From an uncultured Ignavibacteriota bacterium (GTDB taxonomy: Bacteria > Bacteroidota > Ignavibacteria > UBA10030 > UBA8401), in assembly GCA_903861125.1 (NCBI GenBank), contig CAIOTF010000042.1:62001-126000 (forward strand): a stretch of DNA of 64,000 nt. Direction: 5' to 3'. Positions 29,725 to 41,142 of this stretch are shown one piece after another (the stretch's first letter is position 1; each line of letters starts with the position of its first letter). The notes beneath the pieces were generated by a model. That model saw only the letters and a list, made by a program, of their open reading frames with translations, ran no database searches and was not told the DNA's origin. A program made the translations under genes and the position numbers.

Positions 29725-32412
29725 ATGTCTGAACTAGCAAAACAATACAATCCAAAAGAAGTCGAAGAGAAGATCTATCAATGGTGGGAATCTAGCGGAT
29801 TCTTTCATGCCGCGATCAATCCCGACAAAACACCGCATACCATCGTCATTCCCCCGCCGAACATCACCGGCATTCTTCACATGGGGCATATCCTTAACAA
29901 CACGCTGCAGGATGTTTTCACACGATGGAAACGGATGCAGGGATTTGAATCATGCTGGATTCCCGGGACTGATCACGCCGGAATAGCAACGCAGAATGTC
30001 GTGGAAAAAGCCTTGCGCAAAGAAGGAACATCTCTACGGGAGCTCGGCCGTGAAAAATTTATTGACCGCGTGTGGGAATGGAAGACGCAATACGGCGGAA
30101 CGATCAACAAGCAGCTTCGGACACTCGGCGTTTCGTGCGACTGGGAGCGTGAGCGATTCACGATGGACGAAGGACTCTCTAATGCAGTAAAGGAAGTCTT
30201 TGTTCAATTGTATGACAAAGGCCTTATCTACAAAGGAAAATACATCGTCAACTGGTGTCCGCGTGAACAAACCGCATTGAGCGACGATGAAGTAAACAGC
30301 GTTGAGAGCATCGGTCATCTCTGGTACATTAAATATGCAATAGAACATTCGGATGAATTCATCGTTGTTGCCACAACACGACCTGAAACGATGCTCGGTG
30401 ATACAGCTATTGCAGTGAATCCTAAAGATGAACGCTATAAAGATTTCGTGGGAAAAAAAGCAATCGTACCGATCGCCAACCGCATCATCCCGATTGTTGC
30501 GGATGATTTTGTTGATCCGGCCTTCGGTACCGGCGCAGTAAAAGTAACGCCGGCTCACGACGCAAATGATTATCAAACAGGGATACGTCTGAATCTTCCA
30601 CAAATGATCATCATGGACACGTCCGCAACGATGAACGGAAATGTTCCGGCAAAATATCAGGGGTTAGACCGGTATGAATGCCGCCGCGAACTTCTACGTG
30701 ACCTGGAAAAGATGCATCTTCTCATCAAGACCGATGATCATTTCCACAATGTCGGACATTGCTACCGATGTGATACGGTTATTGAACCGTACTTGTCGGA
30801 TCAGTGGTTCGTGAAAATGAAACCGCTTGCGGAACCGGCCTTGAAAGCAGTTCAAGACGGAAAGATAAAATTTTATCCTGAACGGTATATTAAAACATAC
30901 GAGCATTGGATGACGAACATCCGCGATTGGTGCATCTCGCGTCAATTGTGGTGGGGTCACCGGATTCCGGCATATTATCTCCCCGATGGAAGCATCATTG
31001 TTGCGCGGAACATTCAGGAAGCAGGCGAACGGCTGAAGGCTCGCGGTTCACAATATACGGCAAATGATCTGAAGCAGGATAATGATGTTCTCGATACATG
31101 GTTTTCGTCCTGGCTGTGGCCATTTTCCGTTCACGATTGGCCCCATGAAACCGACGATCTGAAATATTTCTATCCTACAGATGTTCTTGTCACAGCACCG
31201 GATATTATTTTCTTCTGGGTTGCACGGATGATCATGGCAGGTTTGGAATTCAAAGGCGAAGTTCCTTTCCGCCACGTCTATTTTACTAGTCTCATCCGCG
31301 ATTCGTCGGGACGAAAGATGAGCAAATCGCTCGGCAATTCTCCCGATCCAATTGATGTCATCGCAACGTACGGCGCAGATGCATTGCGCTTCACCGTACT
31401 GTTCCTGGCTCCCGTCGGACAAGACGTTCTGTACGACAATGATAAATGCGAGATCGGCAGAAATTTTGCAAATAAGATCTGGAACGCCGCTCGGTTTCTG
31501 ATGATGCACCGCGATCAATTACCGGCGGAAAGTGAATTGGTGATTGCCCCCTCTGCTGTTTCGGAGGATATGACCGACCGCTGGATCATTTCGAGATTTA
31601 GCTCTACCGTACGGGATGTTACAATCGCCATGGACAATTTCCGTGTGAACGATGCCGTAAAATTGCTGTACGATTTTCTCTGGAAAGATTTCTGTGACTG
31701 GTATGTCGAATTCGTAAAGAACCGCCTTCAGGAAACCAGCGATGTTCATCTGAAACGGACAATCATTAACCGGGCACTCAAGATCTATGAGGAGACACTG
31801 AAACTTCTTCATCCGTTCATGCCGTTTGTTACGGAAGAAATCTTCCAGCATTTGTCCGAACGTAAAAGCAGCGAAACGATAATGCAAACGATGATGCCGC
31901 AGATGTCAGCCACCGAATCACAGATCGACACGGACGTGGAACGGCAAATGGATTTTCTTCAAAATGTTATTTTGGCTGTCCGGCAGATCCGCAGCGAGAT
32001 GAACATTCCCATGTCCAAAACAATAGAATTCGTTGCCAGCTGTAATGAATTCGAAAAACAGACGATCCTTGAGAACAACCGGAATTCTCTTCAAAAATTA
32101 TTACGGCTTGAGACAATGACCATCGGTATCGCCCTGCCGAAGCCGGGATATGCTGCAAGTTCCGTTGTAAAAGGTCAGGAAATTTTCATTCCGCTGAAAG
32201 GTTTGATCGATACAGGTATCGAGCGGGACCGTTTACAAAAAGAGATAGACCGCCTTGAAGGTCAACTGCGCGGCGTGATGGCAAAATTGAACAACGATAA
32301 TTTTGTCGGCAAAGCAGCACCGGATGTGATCGAAAAAGAGAAGAACAAACAGCAAAACTTCGAACAGACAATACAGAAACTGAAAGTAAATTTGGAGCAG
32401 CTGGTTGGATAA
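29725..32412 (+). CDS. valS: valine--tRNA ligase
   Basis: An 895-residue class I synthetase. It has the HIGH-type motif PPPNITGILHMGHIL (about residues 43-57), an editing domain, the KMSKS motif RKMSKSLGNSPDP (about 530), an anticodon-binding domain and the C-terminal coiled-coil arm (last 60 residues, RDRLQKEIDRLEGQLRG). It lies 35 bases after the cyclic-nucleotide-binding gene. Its stop codon lies within the first codons of the pabB-pabC gene, and its terminator lies inside that gene. Confidence 0.98.
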   Translation: MSELAKQYNPKEVEEKIYQWWESSGFFHAAINPDKTPHTIVIPPPNITGILHMGHILNNTLQDVFTRWKRMQGFESCWIPGTDHAGIATQNVVEKALRKEGTSLRELGREKFIDRVWEWKTQYGGTINKQLRTLGVSCDWERERFTMDEGLSNAVKEVFVQLYDKGLIYKGKYIVNWCPREQTALSDDEVNSVESIGHLWYIKYAIEHSDEFIVVATTRPETMLGDTAIAVNPKDERYKDFVGKKAIVPIANRIIPIVADDFVDPAFGTGAVKVTPAHDANDYQTGIRLNLPQMIIMDTSATMNGNVPAKYQGLDRYECRRELLRDLEKMHLLIKTDDHFHNVGHCYRCDTVIEPYLSDQWFVKMKPLAEPALKAVQDGKIKFYPERYIKTYEHWMTNIRDWCISRQLWWGHRIPAYYLPDGSIIVARNIQEAGERLKARGSQYTANDLKQDNDVLDTWFSSWLWPFSVHDWPHETDDLKYFYPTDVLVTAPDIIFFWVARMIMAGLEFKGEVPFRHVYFTSLIRDSSGRKMSKSLGNSPDPIDVIATYGADALRFTVLFLAPVGQDVLYDNDKCEIGRNFANKIWNAARFLMMHRDQLPAESELVIAPSAVSEDMTDRWIISRFSSTVRDVTIAMDNFRVNDAVKLLYDFLWKDFCDWYVEFVKNRLQETSDVHLKRTIINRALKIYEETLKLLHPFMPFVTEEIFQHLSERKSSETIMQTMMPQMSATESQIDTDVERQMDFLQNVILAVRQIRSEMNIPMSKTIEFVASCNEFEKQTILENNRNSLQKLLRLETMTIGIALPKPGYAASSVVKGQEIFIPLKGLIDTGIERDRLQKEIDRLEGQLRGVMAKLNNDNFVGKAAPDVIEKEKNKQQNFEQTIQKLKVNLEQLVG

Positions 32413-34237
32413 ACAGAAAGAAAATACAAAGCACGGTCGGCCGAACGACCGTGCTTTTTTATTTTCCCTGCTGCAGAAACCAAACTCCGTTCTGTTGGAA
32501 TCATCCCGAACGGACGGACAGAATCAACGCAATCTTCTTTTCCATACACCAGTCAAAATTCTCTCCGCAAACACTCTCGACGATATCCCAAATGTGTTCC
32601 GTGCAATCGATAAATATCTGCTGCAAAAAAAATGGATCGCAGGTTATATCAGCTATGAATGCGGATATCATTTTGAGACGATCGCTCCATCATTCAAGAA
32701 CAACTCTTCTTTTCCCCTCGCTTGGTTCGGCGTGTTTGATGCACCGGTAGAAATAGAAAAAGAACAACTCGTTACGATTTCCAATGGTCAAACAATTGAA
32801 GTACAGAATCCCTCTCTATCCATCTCTGACGTCGACTATCACCGGAAGTTACACCAACTGAAAGAGTATATCGTCAACGGCGATACATATCAGGTGAACT
32901 TCACCGATAAATTTGATTTTGAATTCACCGGAGATGCACGCGATCTCTATTTTGCGCTAAGGCAGAAACAGCATGTACCGTTCGGCGCATTTATCAATAT
33001 GGAAGATTCTCAGGTATTATCATTTTCGCCTGAACTCTTCTTCCGTAGAAAAGGGAACTCTATCATAACAAAACCGATGAAGGGAACTTGCAAACGGGGC
33101 CGGACCATGATAGAGGATGAGCAGTTGTCCGAGTGGCTGCAAAATGACGAAAAAAACCGGAGTGAAAATCTGATGATCGTCGATCTGTTAAGAAATGACA
33201 TCGGTAGGATCTGTGAAAACGGTACGGTAAGCGTCAACAATATGTATGCAATCGAAAAATATGATACCGTTCTGCAAATGACCTCTACGGTCTCCGGAAT
33301 ATTGAATAATGGAATCAATTACTACGATATCTTCAAATCCCTCTTCCCCTGTGGTTCGGTCACCGGTGCTCCGAAAATCCGCACAATGCAGATCATACGC
33401 GAATTGGAACTGCATCAGCGGGGAGTCTATTGCGGTGCGATCGGATTCATTTCGCCGGACGATGAAGCGGTCTTCAATGTGGCGATCAGAACTCTTGAAT
33501 TGAAGAACGGCAAAGGAAAAATGGGTGTCGGCAGCGGCATTGTGTACGACTCAGATGCAGTCCAGGAACTTGAAGAATGCAGATTAAAAGCAGCATTTCT
33601 CCTGAATGAACAACCGGAGTTCCGACTACTGGAAACTATACTGTGGAATGATGGATTTACTTTTTTAGAACAACATCTCGAACGGTTGAAAAACTCCGCA
33701 GTATATTTTTATTTCCCTTTCCATCAAGAACATATTTCTGATGCGCTAACAATCGCAGAACGTTCTTTTCGTCCTCACACCGAATACCGCGTTCGATTGC
33801 TCCTTTCCCGCAGCGGTTCACCGGTAGTGGAAGCGGCAGAGACATCACTTCAACGGATTCCATCAGTGATCAAGATCGCGCCGGTGAGAATGAACTCATC
33901 GGATCCATTTTTGTTCCATAAAACTACTTCGCGAGTGTTGTACGATCACTATTCACAAAAAGCGCGGGAAGAAAGTATCGCTGATTATATCTTCCTCAAC
34001 GAGAAGGATGAAATTACCGAAGGTTCAATCTCAAACATTTTCATAGAAAAGAACGATACATTATTTACTCCGCCGGTGCAATGCGGTTTGCTCACCGGAA
34101 TTTACCGCAACGAGGTTTTACGCACAAACCCAAATGCCGTTGAAAAGATCATCACTCTTGATGACCTGCGCTCATCCGATGCGGTTTTCCTGTGCAATTC
34201 CATCCGCGGGTGGAGCAAAGTAACGCTTTCCCTATAG
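32405..34237 (+). CDS. pabB: aminodeoxychorismate synthase component I fused to a PabC-like lyase
   Basis: A 610-residue fusion for p-aminobenzoate synthesis in the folate pathway. Residues 1 to about 400 are the chorismate-binding enzyme, with KPMKGTCKRG (the PIKGT-type Lys of PabB rather than the PIAGT of TrpE), GSVTGAPKIR and GVGSGIVYDS. The rest is a class IV aminotransferase-fold lyase (PabC) with the likely PLP lysine in FHKTTSR and the signature EITEGSISNIF. The only plausible start is TTG at 32405, seven bases after GGAG (32394-32397) and overlapping the valS end by eight bases. No other in-frame start precedes the conserved region. Confidence 0.9.
   Translation: MDKQKENTKHGRPNDRAFLFSLLQKPNSVLLESSRTDGQNQRNLLFHTPVKILSANTLDDIPNVFRAIDKYLLQKKWIAGYISYECGYHFETIAPSFKNNSSFPLAWFGVFDAPVEIEKEQLVTISNGQTIEVQNPSLSISDVDYHRKLHQLKEYIVNGDTYQVNFTDKFDFEFTGDARDLYFALRQKQHVPFGAFINMEDSQVLSFSPELFFRRKGNSIITKPMKGTCKRGRTMIEDEQLSEWLQNDEKNRSENLMIVDLLRNDIGRICENGTVSVNNMYAIEKYDTVLQMTSTVSGILNNGINYYDIFKSLFPCGSVTGAPKIRTMQIIRELELHQRGVYCGAIGFISPDDEAVFNVAIRTLELKNGKGKMGVGSGIVYDSDAVQELEECRLKAAFLLNEQPEFRLLETILWNDGFTFLEQHLERLKNSAVYFYFPFHQEHISDALTIAERSFRPHTEYRVRLLLSRSGSPVVEAAETSLQRIPSVIKIAPVRMNSSDPFLFHKTTSRVLYDHYSQKAREESIADYIFLNEKDEITEGSISNIFIEKNDTLFTPPVQCGLLTGIYRNEVLRTNPNAVEKIITLDDLRSSDAVFLCNSIRGWSKVTLSL
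32428..32464 (+). terminator. intrinsic terminator inside the 5' end of the pabB-pabC gene
   Basis: A perfect 12-bp stem (AAAGCACGGTCG with CGACCGTGCTTT), loop GCCGAA, followed by TTTTTTATTTT. It begins 16 bases after the valS stop and covers codons 9-17 of pabB-pabC, so ribosomes starting at the TTG would run through it. Confidence 0.88.
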
Positions 34238-34391: not shown

Positions 34392-36743
34392 ATGAAAAAT
34401 ATTTCACTCCTGTTTTTTCTCTCTTCCATACTTTTTGCTCAAGAACGATACAGCCAGGTTCAGATCCCCGTTCCGACAATCGCCGAATATCAACGCATCG
34501 CTGATCTTGGAATCGCCGTCGACCACTTTAACGGTAAGATCGGCACGTCGATCTCTGTGTTTTTGAGTAAAAAAGAATTACTGAAACTGAAAAGTGCAGG
34601 GATCAATTATTCTGTCCAGATCGATGACTGGCAGAAATACTATTTGGAACAGCAAGCGCAGGATCATCCTTACGAACAACAACTGGCACAAGATGTTCCG
34701 AAATATTTTCGGTATGGTTCCATGGGGGGATTTTTGGTCTACTCAGAGCTTTTACAACAACTGGATTCAATGAAACTCCTCTTCCCCAACCTAATTACAA
34801 CAAAAGATTCCATTGGTGCTACGATTGAAGGACGAACGATCTATGCATTAAAGATCTCTGACAATCCGAATATCACCGAACCGGAAGAACCCGAAGTTCT
34901 CTACACGGCACTTCATCATGCACGCGAACCGGAAGGAATGATGACGGTGGTCTATTATATGTGGTGGCTTCTTGAAAATTACGGCAAAGATGCCGAAGCA
35001 ACATATCTGGTGAACAACCGGCAAATGTGGTTCATACCGGTAGTGAATGCAGACGGTTATGTGTATAACCAAACGACAACTCCCGCCGGCGGCGGTGGAT
35101 GGAGAAAGAACAGAAGAAATAACGGTGACGGTACATTCGGTATCGATCTGAACCGAAACTACGGTCTGTTTTACATGTGGAATGCACCGAACAACGGATC
35201 AAGCGATATTACAAGCGACGACACATATCGCGGGAAAAGCCCTTTTTCGGAACCGGAAACGTACACTATTAATAAATTTATCTTTAAGCATACGATAAAA
35301 ACATGCTTCAATTATCACACGTACGGAAATTATTTGATCTATCCTTGGGGATATAGTTCTTCCGAAAGCAACGATTCACTTCTTTTTAGACAGTGGTCGT
35401 ATGATATGTCCATGAACAACAGATATTCAATCGGTACAGATCAGCAGACTGTTGGCTATTCTACGCGCGGTAATTCTGACGACTTTATGTATATCGATTC
35501 TGCAAAAACAAGAACGTATGCATTGACCCCCGAAGTCGGAACAACAGGTTTTTGGCCGGCAAAATCCCTTATTTATCCACTCGCTCAGGAAAATCTGCTG
35601 CAGAATAAATTATTGGCGCATTATGCGGGATCGTATGTTGCAATCAAGTCATTCAGAGCAAAGAATACATTCTCTGCTAATGTAAAGAATTCGATCTCAG
35701 TGCGGTTCATTAATAAGGGATTGGCAGAAGCAAAAGGAATGCCGATATATCTTTCAACATCGAATGGTATAGTCTCCGCGGCTTTTTCTACAACATCACT
35801 CCCCTCGTTTTCGGAATACGAAGGAAGTTTTGATTTTACCGCCGGTAGTCCGGCATCTCCCATAAAAATATACTTAAAAGATTCATCCGGTGCGGTGGTC
35901 AATGACAGCATCACATTTTTTGCCGGAGTGCCGGACGTTCTTCTTAATGACAGTGCAAAATCAACAGCGCTCTGGTCTACCGGAACCGGTTGGGGTGTCA
36001 TCAGCGATGCGGCAGAACAAAATACCTCATTTACCGACAGTCCGAACGGAAATTATGCTGCAAATGCCGAGAATTCCCTCACACTGCTGAATCCTATCGA
36101 CCTTACAAGTTATAAATTTGCCGAACTGAAATTCAGAACAAAGTGGGCGATCGAATCCACATGGGATTTTGGTCTTGTTGAAATATCAACTGATGGCGGC
36201 ACAAGTTGGATATCACTGAAGACTCAATTGTCACGTAAAGGCTCAGGAAGAAGCGGCAGCAAACAACCATCAACATCATACGGCTTTGACGCTTTTACCC
36301 CGGGCCTTACTTGGACGGAATTGTCTGCGGACATCTCGGCATATACCGGCAAGCAGATTAAATTACGGTTCCGTCTTTCTGCGGACGGCGGCGATCAGCG
36401 GGACGGTTGGTATGTTGATGATATTAGAGTGCTTGCATATAACTCACCATCAAATTCTGTGAAAGAAAATACGGCGCCATACGCATATTCACTTTCGCAG
36501 AATTTCCCGAATCCGTTCAATCCTTCTACGACAATACTGTTTTCCGTTGAAAAACAACAGCAGTCATCGCTGCGCATATATAATGCATTGGGACAGGAAG
36601 TTGCTCTCCTAATTGACAAGGAATTACCGGCAGGTAACTACTCGATAAATTTTGATGCCAAACAGTTGTCATCGGGGGTTTATTTTTATAGATTTATGTC
36701 AGGAAATTATTCCTCTATTAAGAAAATGGCTGTAGTGAAATAA
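34392..36743 (+). CDS. M14 zinc carboxypeptidase with T9SS sorting domain
   Basis: A 783-residue secreted peptidase. A signal peptide (MKNISLLFFLSSILFAQ) is followed by a propeptide-like part. The M14 catalytic domain shows zinc ligands in HHAREPEG (about residue 176) and NYHTYGNYLIYPWG, substrate-binding DLNRNYG and the catalytic Glu in LTPEVGTTGFW. A jelly-roll domain with DGGTSWISLK and DGWYVDDIRV comes next. The last 80 residues form a T9SS type A sorting domain (QNFPNPFNPSTT to KKMAVVK). It is thus exported through T9SS to the cell surface or medium. The ATG at 34392 is preferred over an upstream TTG. Its stop overlaps the deoC start. Confidence 0.93.
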   Translation: MKNISLLFFLSSILFAQERYSQVQIPVPTIAEYQRIADLGIAVDHFNGKIGTSISVFLSKKELLKLKSAGINYSVQIDDWQKYYLEQQAQDHPYEQQLAQDVPKYFRYGSMGGFLVYSELLQQLDSMKLLFPNLITTKDSIGATIEGRTIYALKISDNPNITEPEEPEVLYTALHHAREPEGMMTVVYYMWWLLENYGKDAEATYLVNNRQMWFIPVVNADGYVYNQTTTPAGGGGWRKNRRNNGDGTFGIDLNRNYGLFYMWNAPNNGSSDITSDDTYRGKSPFSEPETYTINKFIFKHTIKTCFNYHTYGNYLIYPWGYSSSESNDSLLFRQWSYDMSMNNRYSIGTDQQTVGYSTRGNSDDFMYIDSAKTRTYALTPEVGTTGFWPAKSLIYPLAQENLLQNKLLAHYAGSYVAIKSFRAKNTFSANVKNSISVRFINKGLAEAKGMPIYLSTSNGIVSAAFSTTSLPSFSEYEGSFDFTAGSPASPIKIYLKDSSGAVVNDSITFFAGVPDVLLNDSAKSTALWSTGTGWGVISDAAEQNTSFTDSPNGNYAANAENSLTLLNPIDLTSYKFAELKFRTKWAIESTWDFGLVEISTDGGTSWISLKTQLSRKGSGRSGSKQPSTSYGFDAFTPGLTWTELSADISAYTGKQIKLRFRLSADGGDQRDGWYVDDIRVLAYNSPSNSVKENTAPYAYSLSQNFPNPFNPSTTILFSVEKQQQSSLRIYNALGQEVALLIDKELPAGNYSINFDAKQLSSGVYFYRFMSGNYSSIKKMAVVK

Positions 36744-37651
36744 TGGACAAAACTGATATCCCAAATTTCCGCATGAGTCCGGTGATCGACCAAGTTGGCA
36801 TTGAAGAACGGGTTGCGCGGTTTACCACCCGCAGCATTAAAAAGTCATCAAAATTGCAGGCGCTAAATCTTGCGCTCAGCATGATCGACCTGACGACACT
36901 TGAAGGAAAAGATACGCCGGGAAAAGTAAAACAGATGTGCTACAAAGCCGCTCACATGTGCGATCAACTAGCCAATATTCCCAATGTTGCCGCCGTCTGC
37001 GTTTACCCTAATCATGTCCGAACTGCAAAAGATGCTCTCAAAGGAACGTCAATCAAAGTTGCATCCGTAGCAACGGCTTTCCCGAGTGGAAACACGACTC
37101 GTGTTGCAAAGATATCGGACGTACGATTTGCCATCGGCGAAGGAGCGGATGAGATTGATATGGTAATCTCGCGCGGTCAGTTTTTAGCGGGAAATTATGA
37201 TTTTGTGTTCGACGAAATATCCGCAATCAAAGAAGCCTGCGGATCGGCACGCTTAAAAGTGATCCTTGAAACCGGCGAACTTTCCACACTCGATAACATC
37301 CGGCGTGCAAGCGATATTGCCATACACGCAGGGGCGGATTTCATCAAAACATCCACCGGAAAGATACAGCCGGCCGCCACAATGCCGGTTACGCTTGTTA
37401 TGCTTCAGGCGATAAAAGACCATTATTACAAAACGGGAAAAATGGTCGGCATGAAACCGGCCGGCGGCATTTCTTCGTCAAAATTGGCGATCCATTATCT
37501 TGTGATGCTGCATGAAACGCTCGGCGATCAGTGGATGAACAATGATTGGTTTCGCTTCGGCGCCAGCAGTTTGGCAAACGACATCCTGATGCAGCTTGCC
37601 AAGGAGAAATACGGCACGTATCAAGGGAAAGATTATTTTTCGATAGATTAA
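36743..37651 (+). CDS. deoC: deoxyribose-phosphate aldolase
   Basis: A 302-residue class I aldolase that splits deoxyribose-5-phosphate into acetaldehyde and glyceraldehyde-3-phosphate. Signatures are AVCVYPNHV, VASVATAFPSG, the Schiff-base Lys in DFIKTSTGKI (about residue 210) and MKPAGGISSSK. It is at the long end for the family because of an N-terminal extension of about 40 residues. The start overlaps the carboxypeptidase stop by one base (TAATG). The next genes are an aldehyde dehydrogenase pair, which would oxidise the acetaldehyde made here. Confidence 0.96.
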   Translation: MDKTDIPNFRMSPVIDQVGIEERVARFTTRSIKKSSKLQALNLALSMIDLTTLEGKDTPGKVKQMCYKAAHMCDQLANIPNVAAVCVYPNHVRTAKDALKGTSIKVASVATAFPSGNTTRVAKISDVRFAIGEGADEIDMVISRGQFLAGNYDFVFDEISAIKEACGSARLKVILETGELSTLDNIRRASDIAIHAGADFIKTSTGKIQPAATMPVTLVMLQAIKDHYYKTGKMVGMKPAGGISSSKLAIHYLVMLHETLGDQWMNNDWFRFGASSLANDILMQLAKEKYGTYQGKDYFSID

Positions 37652-37702
37652 TTATCATCGTGAACGGTACGCTTCATGCACACCGTCACTCAGGAAATGA
37701 TT

Positions 37703-39187
37703 ATGAGCAAAGTTAAGAAATCCGAAGCAGAAGGAACACCGTTGAAATTTTTCGGTGATTGGAAATATGCCCCCGCACCGGAAAGCAAAGAACATATCCG
37801 GCTGAAGAAGCAATACGGTCTTTTCATCAACGGCGAGTTCGTTCAGCCAAAGAGTAAAAAATATTTCGATACGATCAATCCCGCCACCGAAGAAAAGATC
37901 GCCGAGATCGCAATCGCAGACGAAAAAGATGTCGACCTTGCTGTGAATGCCGCATCAAAAGCGTATAACAACGTATGGAAGAAAATGCACGCCAAAGAAC
38001 GTGCAAAGTACATCTACCGCATTGCACGAATGATCCAGGAACGTGCCCGCGAACTGGCGGTGATCGAAACAATGAATGGCGGCAAACCGATCCGTGAATC
38101 ACGTGACATCGATGTTCCTCTTGCCGCAAATCATTTCTTCTATTATGCAGGATGGGCCGACAAATTAAATTATGCTTTCCCGAACCGGACTCCCCAATCA
38201 CTCGGTGTAGCCGGACAGATCATTCCGTGGAATTTCCCTCTGCTGATGGCTGCGTGGAAAATCGCGCCGGCATTGGCCGCAGGCAATACGGTCGTTCTTA
38301 AACCGGCAGAGACCACTTCCCTCACCGCGTTGAAACTTGCAGAGATCATCGCTGAAAGCGGTTTGCCCGAAGGTGTCGTCAATATCGTCACCGGATTCGG
38401 GAAAACAGGCGCGGCCATCGTGCAGCATCCAAATGTGAACAAAGTCGCCTTTACCGGCAGTACGGATGTGGGTAAGATTATTCAAAAAGCGATTGCCGGA
38501 ACATCAAAAAGAGTAACGCTGGAACTTGGCGGAAAAGCAGCGAATATCGTGTTCGACGATGCTCCGATCGATCAGGCGGTAGAAGGCATCGTCAACGGCA
38601 TCTTCTTCAATCAGGGACATGTTTGCTGTGCGGGTTCCCGTCTGCTCGTTCAGGAAGGCGTTGCCGATATCGTTATCAGAAAATTGAAAGAGAGAATGGA
38701 AACGCTTATTGTCGGCGATCCCATGGATAAGAATACCGACATTGGTGCGATCAATTCCAAAGAACAGCTGAAAAAGATCCAGCAGTATATCACCATCGGC
38801 ATAAACGAAGGAGCGGAACTGTATCAGAGTTCCTGCACACTTCCGAATAAGGGATTCTTCTGCAAGCCGACTCTGTTCCTGAACACATCACAATCCCACA
38901 GAGTTGTGCAGGAAGAGATCTTCGGACCTGTACTTGCCGTGCAGACATTCCGCACAGTGGAAGAAGCGATCGAAAAGGCAAACAATATTCCATACGGTCT
39001 TTCCGCCGGCATCTGGACGGATAAAGGTTCTAAGATCTTCAATATGACAACAAAATTGCGCGCAGGTGTTGTGTGGGCAAATACCTACAACAAGTTCGAC
39101 CCGACATCGCCGTTCGGCGGATACAAAGAAAGCGGCTTCGGACGCGAAGGGGGCCTGCATGGTCTACTTCCCTATTTACAATTATAA
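37703..39187 (+). CDS. aldehyde dehydrogenase (catalytic member of the pair)
   Basis: A 494-residue NAD(P)-dependent aldehyde dehydrogenase. The N-terminal oligomerisation strand YGLFINGEFVQPKS leads to the Rossmann domain (IIPWNFPLLMAAWKIAPALA, VAFTGSTDVGK), the general-base Glu in TLELGGKAANIVFDD (about 265) and the catalytic Cys in NQGHVCCAGSRLL (about 300). The C-terminal PFGGYKESGFGREGGLHG is intact. It probably oxidises the acetaldehyde made by DeoC. The start at 37703 has the best ribosome site (AGGAAA); an ATG at 37676 is in frame. Confidence 0.94.
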   Translation: MSKVKKSEAEGTPLKFFGDWKYAPAPESKEHIRLKKQYGLFINGEFVQPKSKKYFDTINPATEEKIAEIAIADEKDVDLAVNAASKAYNNVWKKMHAKERAKYIYRIARMIQERARELAVIETMNGGKPIRESRDIDVPLAANHFFYYAGWADKLNYAFPNRTPQSLGVAGQIIPWNFPLLMAAWKIAPALAAGNTVVLKPAETTSLTALKLAEIIAESGLPEGVVNIVTGFGKTGAAIVQHPNVNKVAFTGSTDVGKIIQKAIAGTSKRVTLELGGKAANIVFDDAPIDQAVEGIVNGIFFNQGHVCCAGSRLLVQEGVADIVIRKLKERMETLIVGDPMDKNTDIGAINSKEQLKKIQQYITIGINEGAELYQSSCTLPNKGFFCKPTLFLNTSQSHRVVQEEIFGPVLAVQTFRTVEEAIEKANNIPYGLSAGIWTDKGSKIFNMTTKLRAGVVWANTYNKFDPTSPFGGYKESGFGREGGLHGLLPYLQL

Positions 39188-39204
39188 TTTACCGGATTAC
39201 GACA

Positions 39205-40086
39205 ATGGCACGAGTTGAAATATTAAAGACATACAAGATTTATATCGGCGGACAATTCCCACGGACAGAAAGCGGAAGATATTACCCGCTGACAGACAAG
39301 AAAAAAGAACCGGTCGCAAATGTGTGTCTCTCTTCCCGTAAAGATTTTCGCAATGCGGTCGTTGCGGCCCGATCAGCGTTCGGCGGATGGTCTTCGCGCG
39401 CTGCTTTCAACCGCGGACAGATCCTGTACCGTATTGCCGAGATGTTGGAAGGACGCAAGGACCAGTTCGTGAACGAATTGATCATTCAGGGCAGCACGGC
39501 AAAATCTGCAGCGGCAGAAGTCTCGATGGCGATTGATCGGCTTGTATACTATAGCGGCTGGTGCGACAAATATCAGCAATTGTTCGGGACAGTGAACCCG
39601 GTCGCATCGTCCCATTTTAATTTTTCCGTCCCGGAACCGACCGGCGTGGTTGCGATCATCGCACCGGAAGAAAGTTCACTGCTCGGATTGATCTCCGTAA
39701 TTGCTCCATGCATTGCAGGCGGAAATACATGTGTTGTTCTTGCATCAAACAGCAAACCGCTCTGTTCCATTACATTCGGTGAAGTCCTTGCTACATCCGA
39801 TCTTCCCGGCGGCGTGATCAATATTCTGACAGGCACAAGCAGCGAACTGCACTCGCATTTTTCAAACCATATGGATGTGAACGCAGTCGTTTATTGCAGA
39901 GCGGATGAAGAGGAAAAGAAAACAATTTTTCAAAATTCTTCATTGAATGTTAAACGTTCTTTTGTCTGGAACAACGACTGGTCTAAACCTGAAAGCGAAC
40001 ATCCGTATATGATCCTTGATCTGCAGGAAATAAAGACAACATGGCACCCCATTGAAAATATTGGCATAGCAGGAGCTAAGTATTAA
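39205..40086 (+). CDS. truncated aldehyde-dehydrogenase homologue without catalytic residues
   Basis: A 293-residue protein that aligns by eye with the N-terminal half of aldehyde dehydrogenases: an IYIGGQFPRTESGRYY start, AFGGWSSRAAFNRGQILYRI, the VPEPTGVVAIIAPEES Rossmann strand and LPGGVINILTGT. After about residue 215 the match fades: the catalytic Glu loop and the whole Cys-containing catalytic domain are missing. A short tail ends TTWHPIENIGIAGAKY. The frame is intact and sits 17 bases after the active enzyme, so it is probably a conserved non-catalytic partner rather than a relic. Together the two resemble a bacterial ALDH16 cut in two. Confidence 0.82.
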   Translation: MARVEILKTYKIYIGGQFPRTESGRYYPLTDKKKEPVANVCLSSRKDFRNAVVAARSAFGGWSSRAAFNRGQILYRIAEMLEGRKDQFVNELIIQGSTAKSAAAEVSMAIDRLVYYSGWCDKYQQLFGTVNPVASSHFNFSVPEPTGVVAIIAPEESSLLGLISVIAPCIAGGNTCVVLASNSKPLCSITFGEVLATSDLPGGVINILTGTSSELHSHFSNHMDVNAVVYCRADEEEKKTIFQNSSLNVKRSFVWNNDWSKPESEHPYMILDLQEIKTTWHPIENIGIAGAKY

Positions 40087-40105: not shown

Positions 40106-40609
40106 TTGAGCGTTTTTCTTGCAGGAATGTGGATTGGGTGTTCTTCGTCGGAGAATGCTGCCGAAGATGAAGTTGTAACCGAAGTTGTTGCAGTTGATAC
40201 AGTGGTTACAGCATCCCCCATGCATATTCCGGAAGTTAAAAAACAGGAGAAGGGAAAATCCGCACCGCAGAGATTTTCCGTACAGGCTGATACGGTAGAC
40301 GTTCAAAGGAAAAAACGTCAGGGTTCTTCGCCGTCATCGATCTCTGTGAAGGCATCTGCACCGAAAAAATTCTACACCATTGAAGTGGGTGCATTCAGAC
40401 TGCAGAGCAATGTTAACCGTCATAAAGAAGAATTGGGAAAACGTTTCAAACTTCCTGTGAGAGTGTTGTTCGACAGTACGCTCAAGTTGACACGTGTGTG
40501 TGTCGGAACATTTTCAACAAAATCTTTTGCGGTCGATTTCATCAATAGCATGCAGCAACAATATCCGAATGAGTATCCCGACCTTTGGGTATCATACTGG
40601 ACAAAATAA
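40106..40609 (+). CDS. SPOR-domain lipoprotein
   Basis: A lipoprotein with lipobox WIGC and a C-terminal SPOR domain of about 70 residues (KFYTIEVGAFRLQSNVNRHKEEL to PDLWVSYWTK), a fold that binds denuded peptidoglycan glycan strands. Between them is a low-complexity Val/Lys/Ser-rich linker. The listed TTG start (40106) gives a signal lacking the usual basic residue. An ATT at 40082, six bases after AGGAG (40071-40075) and overlapping the stop of the upstream gene, would give a proper I/MKHYYHIALSVFLAG signal and may be the true start. Confidence 0.8.
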   Translation: MSVFLAGMWIGCSSSENAAEDEVVTEVVAVDTVVTASPMHIPEVKKQEKGKSAPQRFSVQADTVDVQRKKRQGSSPSSISVKASAPKKFYTIEVGAFRLQSNVNRHKEELGKRFKLPVRVLFDSTLKLTRVCVGTFSTKSFAVDFINSMQQQYPNEYPDLWVSYWTK

Positions 40610-40611
40610 TC

Positions 40612-41142
40612 ATGGCCATTGTTCGATTCTTCGTATATTTCTTCACTGCTTCTTCACTGCTGTTCGGACAAGCATACACCAGTGCCGATTCATTATACCA
40701 GCCGCGGAAAGAACAATTGAGCACCTTCGAACGGTCGTTCAAACCTTCCTTTTATGATTCCGAAGTGTACCTTTATAAGAAAAATGATACCGCCAAGGTT
40801 TCCGGACGGTCGATTGATCAATTGACGTCGGCTCCTCCGGAGACGCTGCAAGGATTCAGGGTTCAACTACTTGCGACAAATAATTACGACGAAGCGAATA
40901 CAACGCGGAATATCATTACGCAGACGTTTCCTGATGTTTGGATCTATCTTGTCTTTGAATCGCCGACGTATAAGATCCGGGTGGGAGATTTTGCGAACCG
41001 TGCTGAAGCGAAAATTCTTCTCGATCAGTTTCTTACAAAGGGATTCAGGAAAGCATGGATCGTTCCTGACCGTATCATCAGAAATCAACTTCCAAAACCG
41101 CCGCTGCCAACTCCAATCGACAGCACTTCTCTACTCCGATAG
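40612..41142 (+). CDS. exported SPOR-domain protein
   Basis: A 176-residue protein with a signal peptide (MAIVRFFVYFFTASSLLFGQ) and a C-terminal SPOR repeat (LQGFRVQLLATNNYDEANTT, then YLVFESPTYKIRVGDFANRA and GFRKAWIVPD). It lies two bases behind the SPOR lipoprotein gene, so two peptidoglycan-binding proteins are made together. They could act at the division septum or as general wall sensors; no partner enzyme is next to them. Start chosen at 40612, where the signal peptide begins. Confidence 0.85.
   Translation: MAIVRFFVYFFTASSLLFGQAYTSADSLYQPRKEQLSTFERSFKPSFYDSEVYLYKKNDTAKVSGRSIDQLTSAPPETLQGFRVQLLATNNYDEANTTRNIITQTFPDVWIYLVFESPTYKIRVGDFANRAEAKILLDQFLTKGFRKAWIVPDRIIRNQLPKPPLPTPIDSTSLLR

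Follow-up and report, generated by a model that had tools for sequence, protein, structure and literature searches.

A two-gene, ALDH16-type aldehyde dehydrogenase with a putative inactive partner subunit encoded beside deoC in an Ignavibacteriota genome

We analyzed a stretch of 64,000 nucleotides from an uncultured Ignavibacteriota bacterium (contig CAIOTF010000042.1, positions 62,001 to 126,000; hereafter the window), in which deoC is followed by two genes of the aldehyde dehydrogenase (ALDH) type. The three genes are consecutive on the plus strand, with spacers of 51 and 17 bases (Table 1). We refer to the product of the first ALDH gene as P0001, or the catalytic subunit, and to that of the second as P0002, or the partner. 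The P0001 gene ends with a TAA stop codon, and an in-frame ATG located upstream, at 37676, is a possible alternative start. Both proteins are among the seven matches to the Pfam Aldedh model in this genome. A preliminary description, made from the letters of the window alone, had placed the second gene 17 bases after the first and given it 293 residues, and our coordinates agree with this.

Table 1. Positions in the window of the deoC, P0001 and P0002 genes and of the elements discussed in the text
Feature	Position	Strand	Basis
deoC, deoxyribose-5-phosphate aldolase, 302 aa	36743..37651	+	TIGR00126 182.6 bits vs cut-off 117.3; Pfam DeoC
P0001, catalytic ALDH16-type aldehyde dehydrogenase, 494 aa	37703..39187	+	best PDB match ALDH16 6MVR; ALDH16 clade in trees
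Shortened oligomerization hairpin of P0001, 16 residues between W151 and G168	38156..38203	+	alignment
Catalytic Glu274 codon of P0001	38522..38524	+	alignment
Catalytic Cys308 codon of P0001	38624..38626	+	alignment to the position mutated in 6MVU (C295A, per entry title)
Short C terminus of P0001, 10 residues past GREGG, without a terminal strand	39155..39184	+	alignment
Intergenic gap P0001/P0002, 17 bases	39188..39204	+	sequence; genes in different frames
P0002, putative inactive partner, stand-alone ALDH16 C-terminal domain, 293 aa	39205..40086	+	phmmer 6MVR 501-764; AlphaFold2; Foldseek
Oligomerization hairpin kept by P0002, residues 129-145	39589..39639	+	alignment; model strands E129-132, E137-145
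Terminal strand kept by P0002, QEIKTTWHP, residues 274-282	40024..40050	+	conservation; strand in AlphaFold2 model

P0001 covers positions 1-457 of the 461 positions of the Aldedh model and harbors both C308 and E274, in good agreement with the preliminary description, which took it for a complete ALDH with its catalytic cysteine. Its best match in the PDB was the ALDH16 of Loktanella (entries 6MVR, 6MVS and 6MVU, described in PMC8160307): residues 6-475 of 6MVR gave 495 bits for that half and 541 bits for the whole chain, and the next protein scored 445 bits. The Cys308 position could be read in 127 of the 129 catalytic proteins of the split, two-gene form, the other two (L064 and L120) being encoded by genes cut at a contig end, and it was a cysteine in all 127. 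The same was true for all 32 rows of the fused, single-chain set. In this count and in those of the hairpin and the C terminus, 31 rows are truly fused; the extra row, L265, is a 4.3-kb Actinomycetota contig with a broken catalytic frame that was mislabelled as fused through a long overlapping open reading frame (ORF).

P0002 covers only positions 16-211 of the Aldedh model and had been taken for the first two thirds of an ALDH. Instead, it has the full length of an ALDH16 second domain: its residues 8-282 aligned to residues 501-764 of the 767 residues of 6MVR/6MVU (phmmer, PDB), with 157 bits compared to 114 bits for the next family, ALDH1L1. Since the second domain of 6MVR is equally short (about 265 residues) and has the same final strand, P0002 shows no loss relative to ALDH16. 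The AlphaFold2 model of P0002, built from 68 alignment rows, had a predicted local distance difference test (pLDDT) score of 94.5 and a predicted template modelling (pTM) score of 0.90. Its top three Foldseek matches were all ALDH16 entries (TMq 0.87), and VIA-align superposed 269 of its residues on positions 497-765 of 6MVR at 1.3 A. Alignment to the ALDH16 C-terminal domain, which had been proposed as a check, was thus successful in sequence and in fold, and the idea that the parts of ALDH16 occur here as two proteins is borne out by the best PDB matches of P0001 and P0002, which are complementary halves of 6MVR.

P0002 has no active-site lysine and lacks the whole Cys domain, the latter as previously claimed. 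Among the 16 partners that we aligned, the lysine position was occupied by L or V in every case, the Cys and Glu405 regions were always missing, and the catalytic glutamate was lost in 15 and kept in 1. The TTWHPIEN tail, which had been described as distinct, is for the most part the conserved last strand of the family: E275, K277, T278, W280 and H281 were invariant in 68 split partner rows, and the matching strand of the fused relatives reads EVKxIWxP. Only the residues after this strand (283-293) vary. ALDH16 is defined as a single polypeptide, and here we found two ORFs in different frames, separated by a stop codon and 17 bases. Judged by its sequence, the pair is a split sister form of ALDH16 that lies outside the strict single-chain definition.

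The oligomerization flap of ordinary ALDHs is composed of a hairpin and the last strand of the chain. The hairpin stretch was 24-30 residues long in ordinary ALDHs (n = 12, one common alignment), 16 residues long in 24 of 25 split catalytic subunits sampled from the 129 (counting by pattern in the complete set gave a single value in 123), and 14 residues long in 31 of the 32 rows of the fused set, the odd row fitting the mislabelled L265. In PDB alignments, the hairpin of P0001 showed 8-residue gaps compared to both yeast ALDH (8RWK) and ALDH1A2. Furthermore, the chain of 23 of the 25 split catalytic subunits ended 10-13 residues past GREGG, compared to 15-45 residues in ordinary ALDHs, indicating that the last strand is missing. 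Carrying both a hairpin and a terminal strand in the catalytic chain is a trait of ALDH1/2-type enzymes that the split catalytic subunits do not show. As for the partners, the hairpin stretch was 27 residues long in 15 of the 16 measured, and the terminal strand had a mean top-residue frequency of 0.87, the highest among five stretches measured. The flap columns of the partner were also more conserved than the remainder of the protein (one-sided Mann-Whitney p = 0.0006). As the hairpin is shortened in split and fused forms alike, the shortening probably predates their separation. Additionally, because the live subunit is devoid of oligomerization elements of its own, shaping the quaternary structure appears to be the likeliest of the roles suggested earlier for the dead partner.

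In a quick tree of the catalytic half, from which L265 was excluded, 94 split and 24 fused rows fell into two groups sister to each other (97, 100) and were set apart from 17 ordinary ALDHs (99). A careful tree was built on 53 of these 135 rows, comprising 26 split, 14 fused and 13 ordinary ALDHs; the ordinary ALDHs L001, L284, L285 and L296 were dropped because of their long branches. It separated ALDH16 from ordinary ALDHs at 100/99 and recovered the fused group at 100/100 and the split group at 93/98. In a tree of the C-domain, which had no outgroup, the fused rows formed one clade on a long branch, and two rows were bad: F_L265, an artefact with a branch length of 10, and S_L243, labelled split but in reality a cut fused gene. 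A single change between the split and fused states would explain these data. The trees do not settle the direction of this change, the two forms being sister clades under the outgroup; we think that the split form is the older one, because a duplication first yields two genes.

To describe the distribution of the pair, we sampled 198 genomes of the phylum of the window and searched them with P0002 at 1e-20. Matches were found in 62 genomes, including that of the window. A stand-alone partner was present in 39 (at least 46% identity and at least 260 bits) and a fused form in 2 (open frames of 1061 and 895), and the remaining 21 contained ordinary ALDHs only (28-31% identity). With P0001 as a query, the catalytic gene was found in 39 of the 198 genomes at 744.9 bits or more, followed by the fused form at 527 and the best ordinary ALDH at 461.7. 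The two sets of 39 genomes were identical, including three genomes in which the genes lie apart. Other phyla were searched with a profile at 1e-50, each sample including one centre genome that had been picked for its split form. Matches, centres included, were found in 23 of 249 Pseudomonadota, 28 of 149 Actinomycetota, 10 of 115 Verrucomicrobiota and 13 of 119 Planctomycetota. Without the centre genomes, all 22 copies in Pseudomonadota were fused, and the split form accounted for 26 of 27 copies in Actinomycetota (L264, at a contig edge, is ambiguous), for 8 of 9 in Verrucomicrobiota (the ninth being the cut fused gene L243) and for 7 of 12 in Planctomycetota, the other 5 being fused. Four genes labelled "ALDH" by the script (L226 and L236-L238), their C-domain scoring under the cut-off, were counted as fused, as their frames of 790-928 residues contain the C-domain. 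In L243 (4995-6236), the frame of the fused ALDH16 is interrupted within its catalytic part, of which about 90 residues remain joined to the C-domain.

A further set consisted of 80 named loci, the best 80 of at least 591, a selection biased to split forms. According to the record titles, they belong to nine NCBI phyla, with 54 loci in Bacteroidota, although some titles of metagenome-assembled genomes (MAGs) are doubtful, and a locus titled Streptomyces (L080) grouped with Bacteroidota-type rows in the C-domain tree. Sixteen genomes had a partner with no catalytic neighbor in the stretch retrieved, and in 14 of these a catalytic gene, or part of one (only 177 residues in G846), is present elsewhere. 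Overall, the two-gene form is widespread and not specific to the source genome. The pair has a patchy distribution within the phylum, as only the genome of the window has it among the three genomes of its own family that were sampled, and the partner nearest to P0002 (77%) among the best 80 loci was that of a Sediminibacterium MAG. This suggests that the module has been transferred between lineages.

The order deoC-ALDH-partner was found in 63 of the 80 named loci; 5 loci contained ALDH-partner, and 12 had a lone partner in the stretch, 6 of them with less than 3.3 kb of upstream sequence. Among the 20 wide loci from the phylum of the window, 15 showed the order deoC-ALDH-partner, 2 had deoC followed by a fused ALDH16, and 3, from family f22, had a lone partner. 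The preliminary description had proposed to look for this order in related genomes, where it indeed recurs. The same order was present in 25 of the 27 Actinomycetota loci and in 8 of the 9 loci from Verrucomicrobiota. In Planctomycetota, 6 of 12 loci showed it, and 5 of the 12 are fused. Upstream of the fused genes of Pseudomonadota, deoC was found in 21 of 22 cases, the remaining gene starting at a contig edge; Sinorhizobium and Qingshengfaniella provide examples of fused ALDH16 adjoining deoC. Hence, each of the five phyla sampled contains deoC next to split or fused forms. In the fused loci L039 (6962-7417) and L040 (6872-7321), a gene of the RbsD/FucU (fucose-binding) family lies downstream, and a DeoR-type regulator is encoded upstream of deoC; neither name was seen among the direct neighbors in the window.

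Measured to the position of the first residue of P0002, the spacing of the two ALDH genes had a median of 22 bases over 123 loci. It was at most 30 bases long in 69 of these and exceeded 500 bases in 11 (0.56-1.85 kb). About 0.6 kb separates the two genes in the Chitinophagaceae-type loci L041, L072 and L074, and in L041 the gap holds a small reading frame, MATVKRFEDLDCWKISLEL, which by eye resembles a four-helix-bundle/23S intervening-sequence protein. In family f22, the catalytic gene (L198, L199 and L200) and the partner gene (L049, L050 and L058) are located on different contigs, and both are retained. This family represents a natural test case for the function of the pair outside the deo module.

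We then compared the constraint on the two genes. The ratio of nonsynonymous to synonymous substitution rates (dN/dS) of the partner was 0.04-0.20 in 7 of 9 locus pairs, the other 2 being saturated, and that of the catalytic gene was 0.03-0.14 in 5 of 8 pairs, with 3 saturated; several dS values in these pairs were above 1.3. Furthermore, 24 columns were invariant in the partner alignment (68 rows), and 142 of 144 partner ORFs were complete, the other 2 being cut at contig or locus ends. Both genes are constrained, the partner somewhat less. This is in agreement with the earlier view that the clean frame of the partner is maintained rather than decaying. In addition, the pairwise distances of the catalytic subunit and the partner were correlated over 113 loci (rho 0.76), and their correlations with deoC were 0.68 and 0.73.

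To model the assembly, we took advantage of L111, in which the partner is about 62% identical to P0002 and both genes are in the same frame with one stop between them. We read the sequence through this stop and folded it on an alignment of 25 rows, of which 6 were split read-through and 19 fused. The resulting model had a pLDDT of 83.9 and a pTM of 0.82, with a long linker of low confidence. VIA-align fitted both halves on 6MVS with 731 residues at 2.1 A (Z 53.9), a fit that is biased by the linkage of the chain and by the fused rows.

With respect to the pathway, the source genome encodes a pyrimidine-nucleoside phosphorylase (547 bits, cut-off 409) and a phosphopentomutase (507 bits, cut-off 256). 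The phosphopentomutase gene (L302, 1429-4094) directly follows an ORF that by eye resembles GAF/GGDEF proteins, the two sharing one base. These enzymes would convert deoxynucleosides to deoxyribose 1-phosphate and then to deoxyribose 5-phosphate. DeoC would next release acetaldehyde, as it cleaves deoxyribose 5-phosphate into glyceraldehyde 3-phosphate and acetaldehyde (PMC6365646). Gene order suggests that the ALDH pair would oxidize this acetaldehyde to acetate with NAD+. In the pair, the partner may dock on the catalytic subunit at the place where the second subunit sits in an ordinary ALDH dimer, and it would supply in trans the two-piece beta flap, consisting of the hairpin and the last strand, that the catalytic subunit is missing. 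Two such pairs would form an alpha2-beta2 particle imitating the ALDH tetramer, like the dimer of single-chain ALDH16. The partner would thus be a structural subunit, and the catalytic subunit alone would be expected to be unstable, mis-assembled or poorly active. We consider it quite probable that the locus encodes an ALDH16 in two pieces, acting as an obligate heteromer in which a dead subunit gives the flap and which oxidizes the acetaldehyde of DeoC, where we infer both the interaction and the substrate.

Several observations weigh against this proposal. The docked model counts as support but is weak proof, since reading through the stop tethers the halves and 19 of the 25 rows are naturally fused. 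A Foldseek overlay of the same model on 6MVS gave a root mean square deviation of 7.2 over 782 columns (TMt 0.92), and single ALDH chains nearly matched the VIA-align Z score of the model over the catalytic half alone (52 vs 54). Similarly, the fold of P0002 by itself tied with ordinary ALDHs (Z 36-37), so that for P0002 the fold is not decisive and the sequence decides. In all five locus pairs with both values, the dN/dS of the partner was above that of the catalytic gene, and the correlation between partner and catalytic distances given deoC was only moderate (partial rho 0.52, 113 loci). In family f22, neither ALDH gene is near deoC. Of the 16 genomes in which the partner has no catalytic neighbor, 2 (G203 and G715) yielded no ALDH16-type catalytic gene, the partner-type match of G715 being part of a cut fused gene. 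Finally, the substrate was assigned solely from gene order and the presence of the pathway.

We also weighed other explanations of the two genes. The loss of the catalytic residues and of a whole domain would be expected of a decaying ALDH duplicate, a pseudogene or truncation kept by chance. However, open frames of similar length occur in Bacteroidota, Actinomycetota, Verrucomicrobiota and Planctomycetota, and the low dN/dS of 7 of the 9 locus pairs, the 24 invariant columns and the co-occurrence in 39 of 39 genomes make decay practically negligible. We rejected it on account of conservation, purifying selection and clade-wide occurrence. Hardly more credible is an assembly error or a recent frameshift of a fused ALDH16 in the window, which would fit two genes out of frame over a small gap and has a precedent in the cut fused gene L243. 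Whole clades are split, with a stop, a gap and a start of their own, and in the trees the catalytic halves of the two forms group apart; this explanation was rejected because the split state is clade-wide and separate from the fused clade.

The partner might also be an independent protein that makes no ALDH16-type interface, for instance a sensor or a scaffold by which the ALDH docks on DeoC, next to a catalytic subunit that assembles by itself. Such a protein would be compatible with the linkage of deoC to split and fused forms alike, with the wide spacing of the ALDH genes in 11 of 123 loci and with their being unlinked in some genomes. Nevertheless, we regard it as improbable: the catalytic subunit is without the dimerization elements of ordinary ALDHs, and the partner retains exactly those; in the fused clade, these two parts are joined in a single polypeptide; and the genes are retained together even in genomes where they are linked neither to each other nor to deoC. 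ALDHs are often promiscuous, and a heteromeric ALDH16 could act on a substrate other than the acetaldehyde of DeoC, be it another aldehyde or in general detoxification; in f22 and some further genomes, the pair does not lie near deoC. We deem this unlikely as well, given the proximity of deoC to split or fused forms in each of the five sampled phyla and the presence of the enzymes feeding DeoC in the same genome.

Compared to known systems, the proposed heteromer is closest to the Loktanella ALDH16, the structures of which reportedly come from Liu and Tanner in 2019. The two are alike in the sequence of both halves (495 bits for P0001 and 157 for P0002), in fold, in the inactive C-terminal domain and in the shortened hairpin of the catalytic half, and fused homologues also adjoin deoC; they differ in that the Loktanella enzyme is a single chain of 767 residues whereas two genes are found here, the catalytic halves being sister clades. 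Ordinary homo-oligomeric ALDH1/2-type enzymes (ALDH2, 1CW3; ALDH1A2, 6ALJ) share the fold of both proteins and the catalytic residues of P0001. However, they carry the hairpin and the terminal strand in the chain of the active site, and here these elements are on the other subunit. Human ALDH16A1 joins an ALDH domain and an ALDH16 C-terminal domain in a single chain. It is described as a pseudoenzyme without the catalytic cysteine (PMC8160307), whereas P0001 keeps it; the comparison with the human protein covers domain make-up and the catalytic cysteine. In sugar-phosphate (SPU) microcompartment loci, a DeoC-like aldolase is likewise encoded next to an aldehyde dehydrogenase, with acetaldehyde as the proposed link. 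Unlike in our proposal, that dehydrogenase is thought to form acetyl-CoA within the shell, and the part of the source considered here mentions neither ALDH16 nor an inactive partner (PMC4207490). Pseudoenzymes that support an active homologue by shaping its assembly are also documented (PMC10211241). The examples in the part of that source considered here come from other families, the ALDH case being an inactive ALDH2 variant, which is an allele and not a dedicated subunit. Among the full-text matches listed in our literature search, which left most subscription papers outside its scope, we found neither a two-gene ALDH16 nor an ALDH16 beside deoC.

We know of no clear function for the extra ALDH16 domain. 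In single-chain ALDH16, this domain can be removed only by cutting the protein; as the product of a separate gene, its role can be tested by omission. Furthermore, the deoC neighborhood common to the split and fused forms makes the oxidation of deoxyribose-derived acetaldehyde the likely job of bacterial ALDH16. As to its origin, it is conceivable, though short of probable, that an obligate heteromeric ALDH with a dead subunit lending the flap to the live one was the ancestral state of ALDH16. A homo-oligomeric ALDH would have undergone tandem duplication, the active site and the flap would have been divided between the copies, and later fusion would have given the single-chain ALDH16 of Pseudomonadota and presumably of animals. 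If this is true, the dead flap-bearing subunit illustrates a route from a homo-oligomer through a hetero-oligomer to a fused chain.

Upstream of the three genes in the window, a zinc carboxypeptidase with a MAM domain and a type IX secretion tail (34401-36743) overlaps deoC by one base, which is an unexpected neighbor for a sugar catabolism gene. Located 3' of the partner gene are two ORFs in a row (40106-41142), the first with a Pfam SPOR domain and the second alike by eye. Further upstream, an ORF at 32405-34237 resembles, by eye, a fused aminodeoxychorismate synthase component I and lyase (PabB-PabC).

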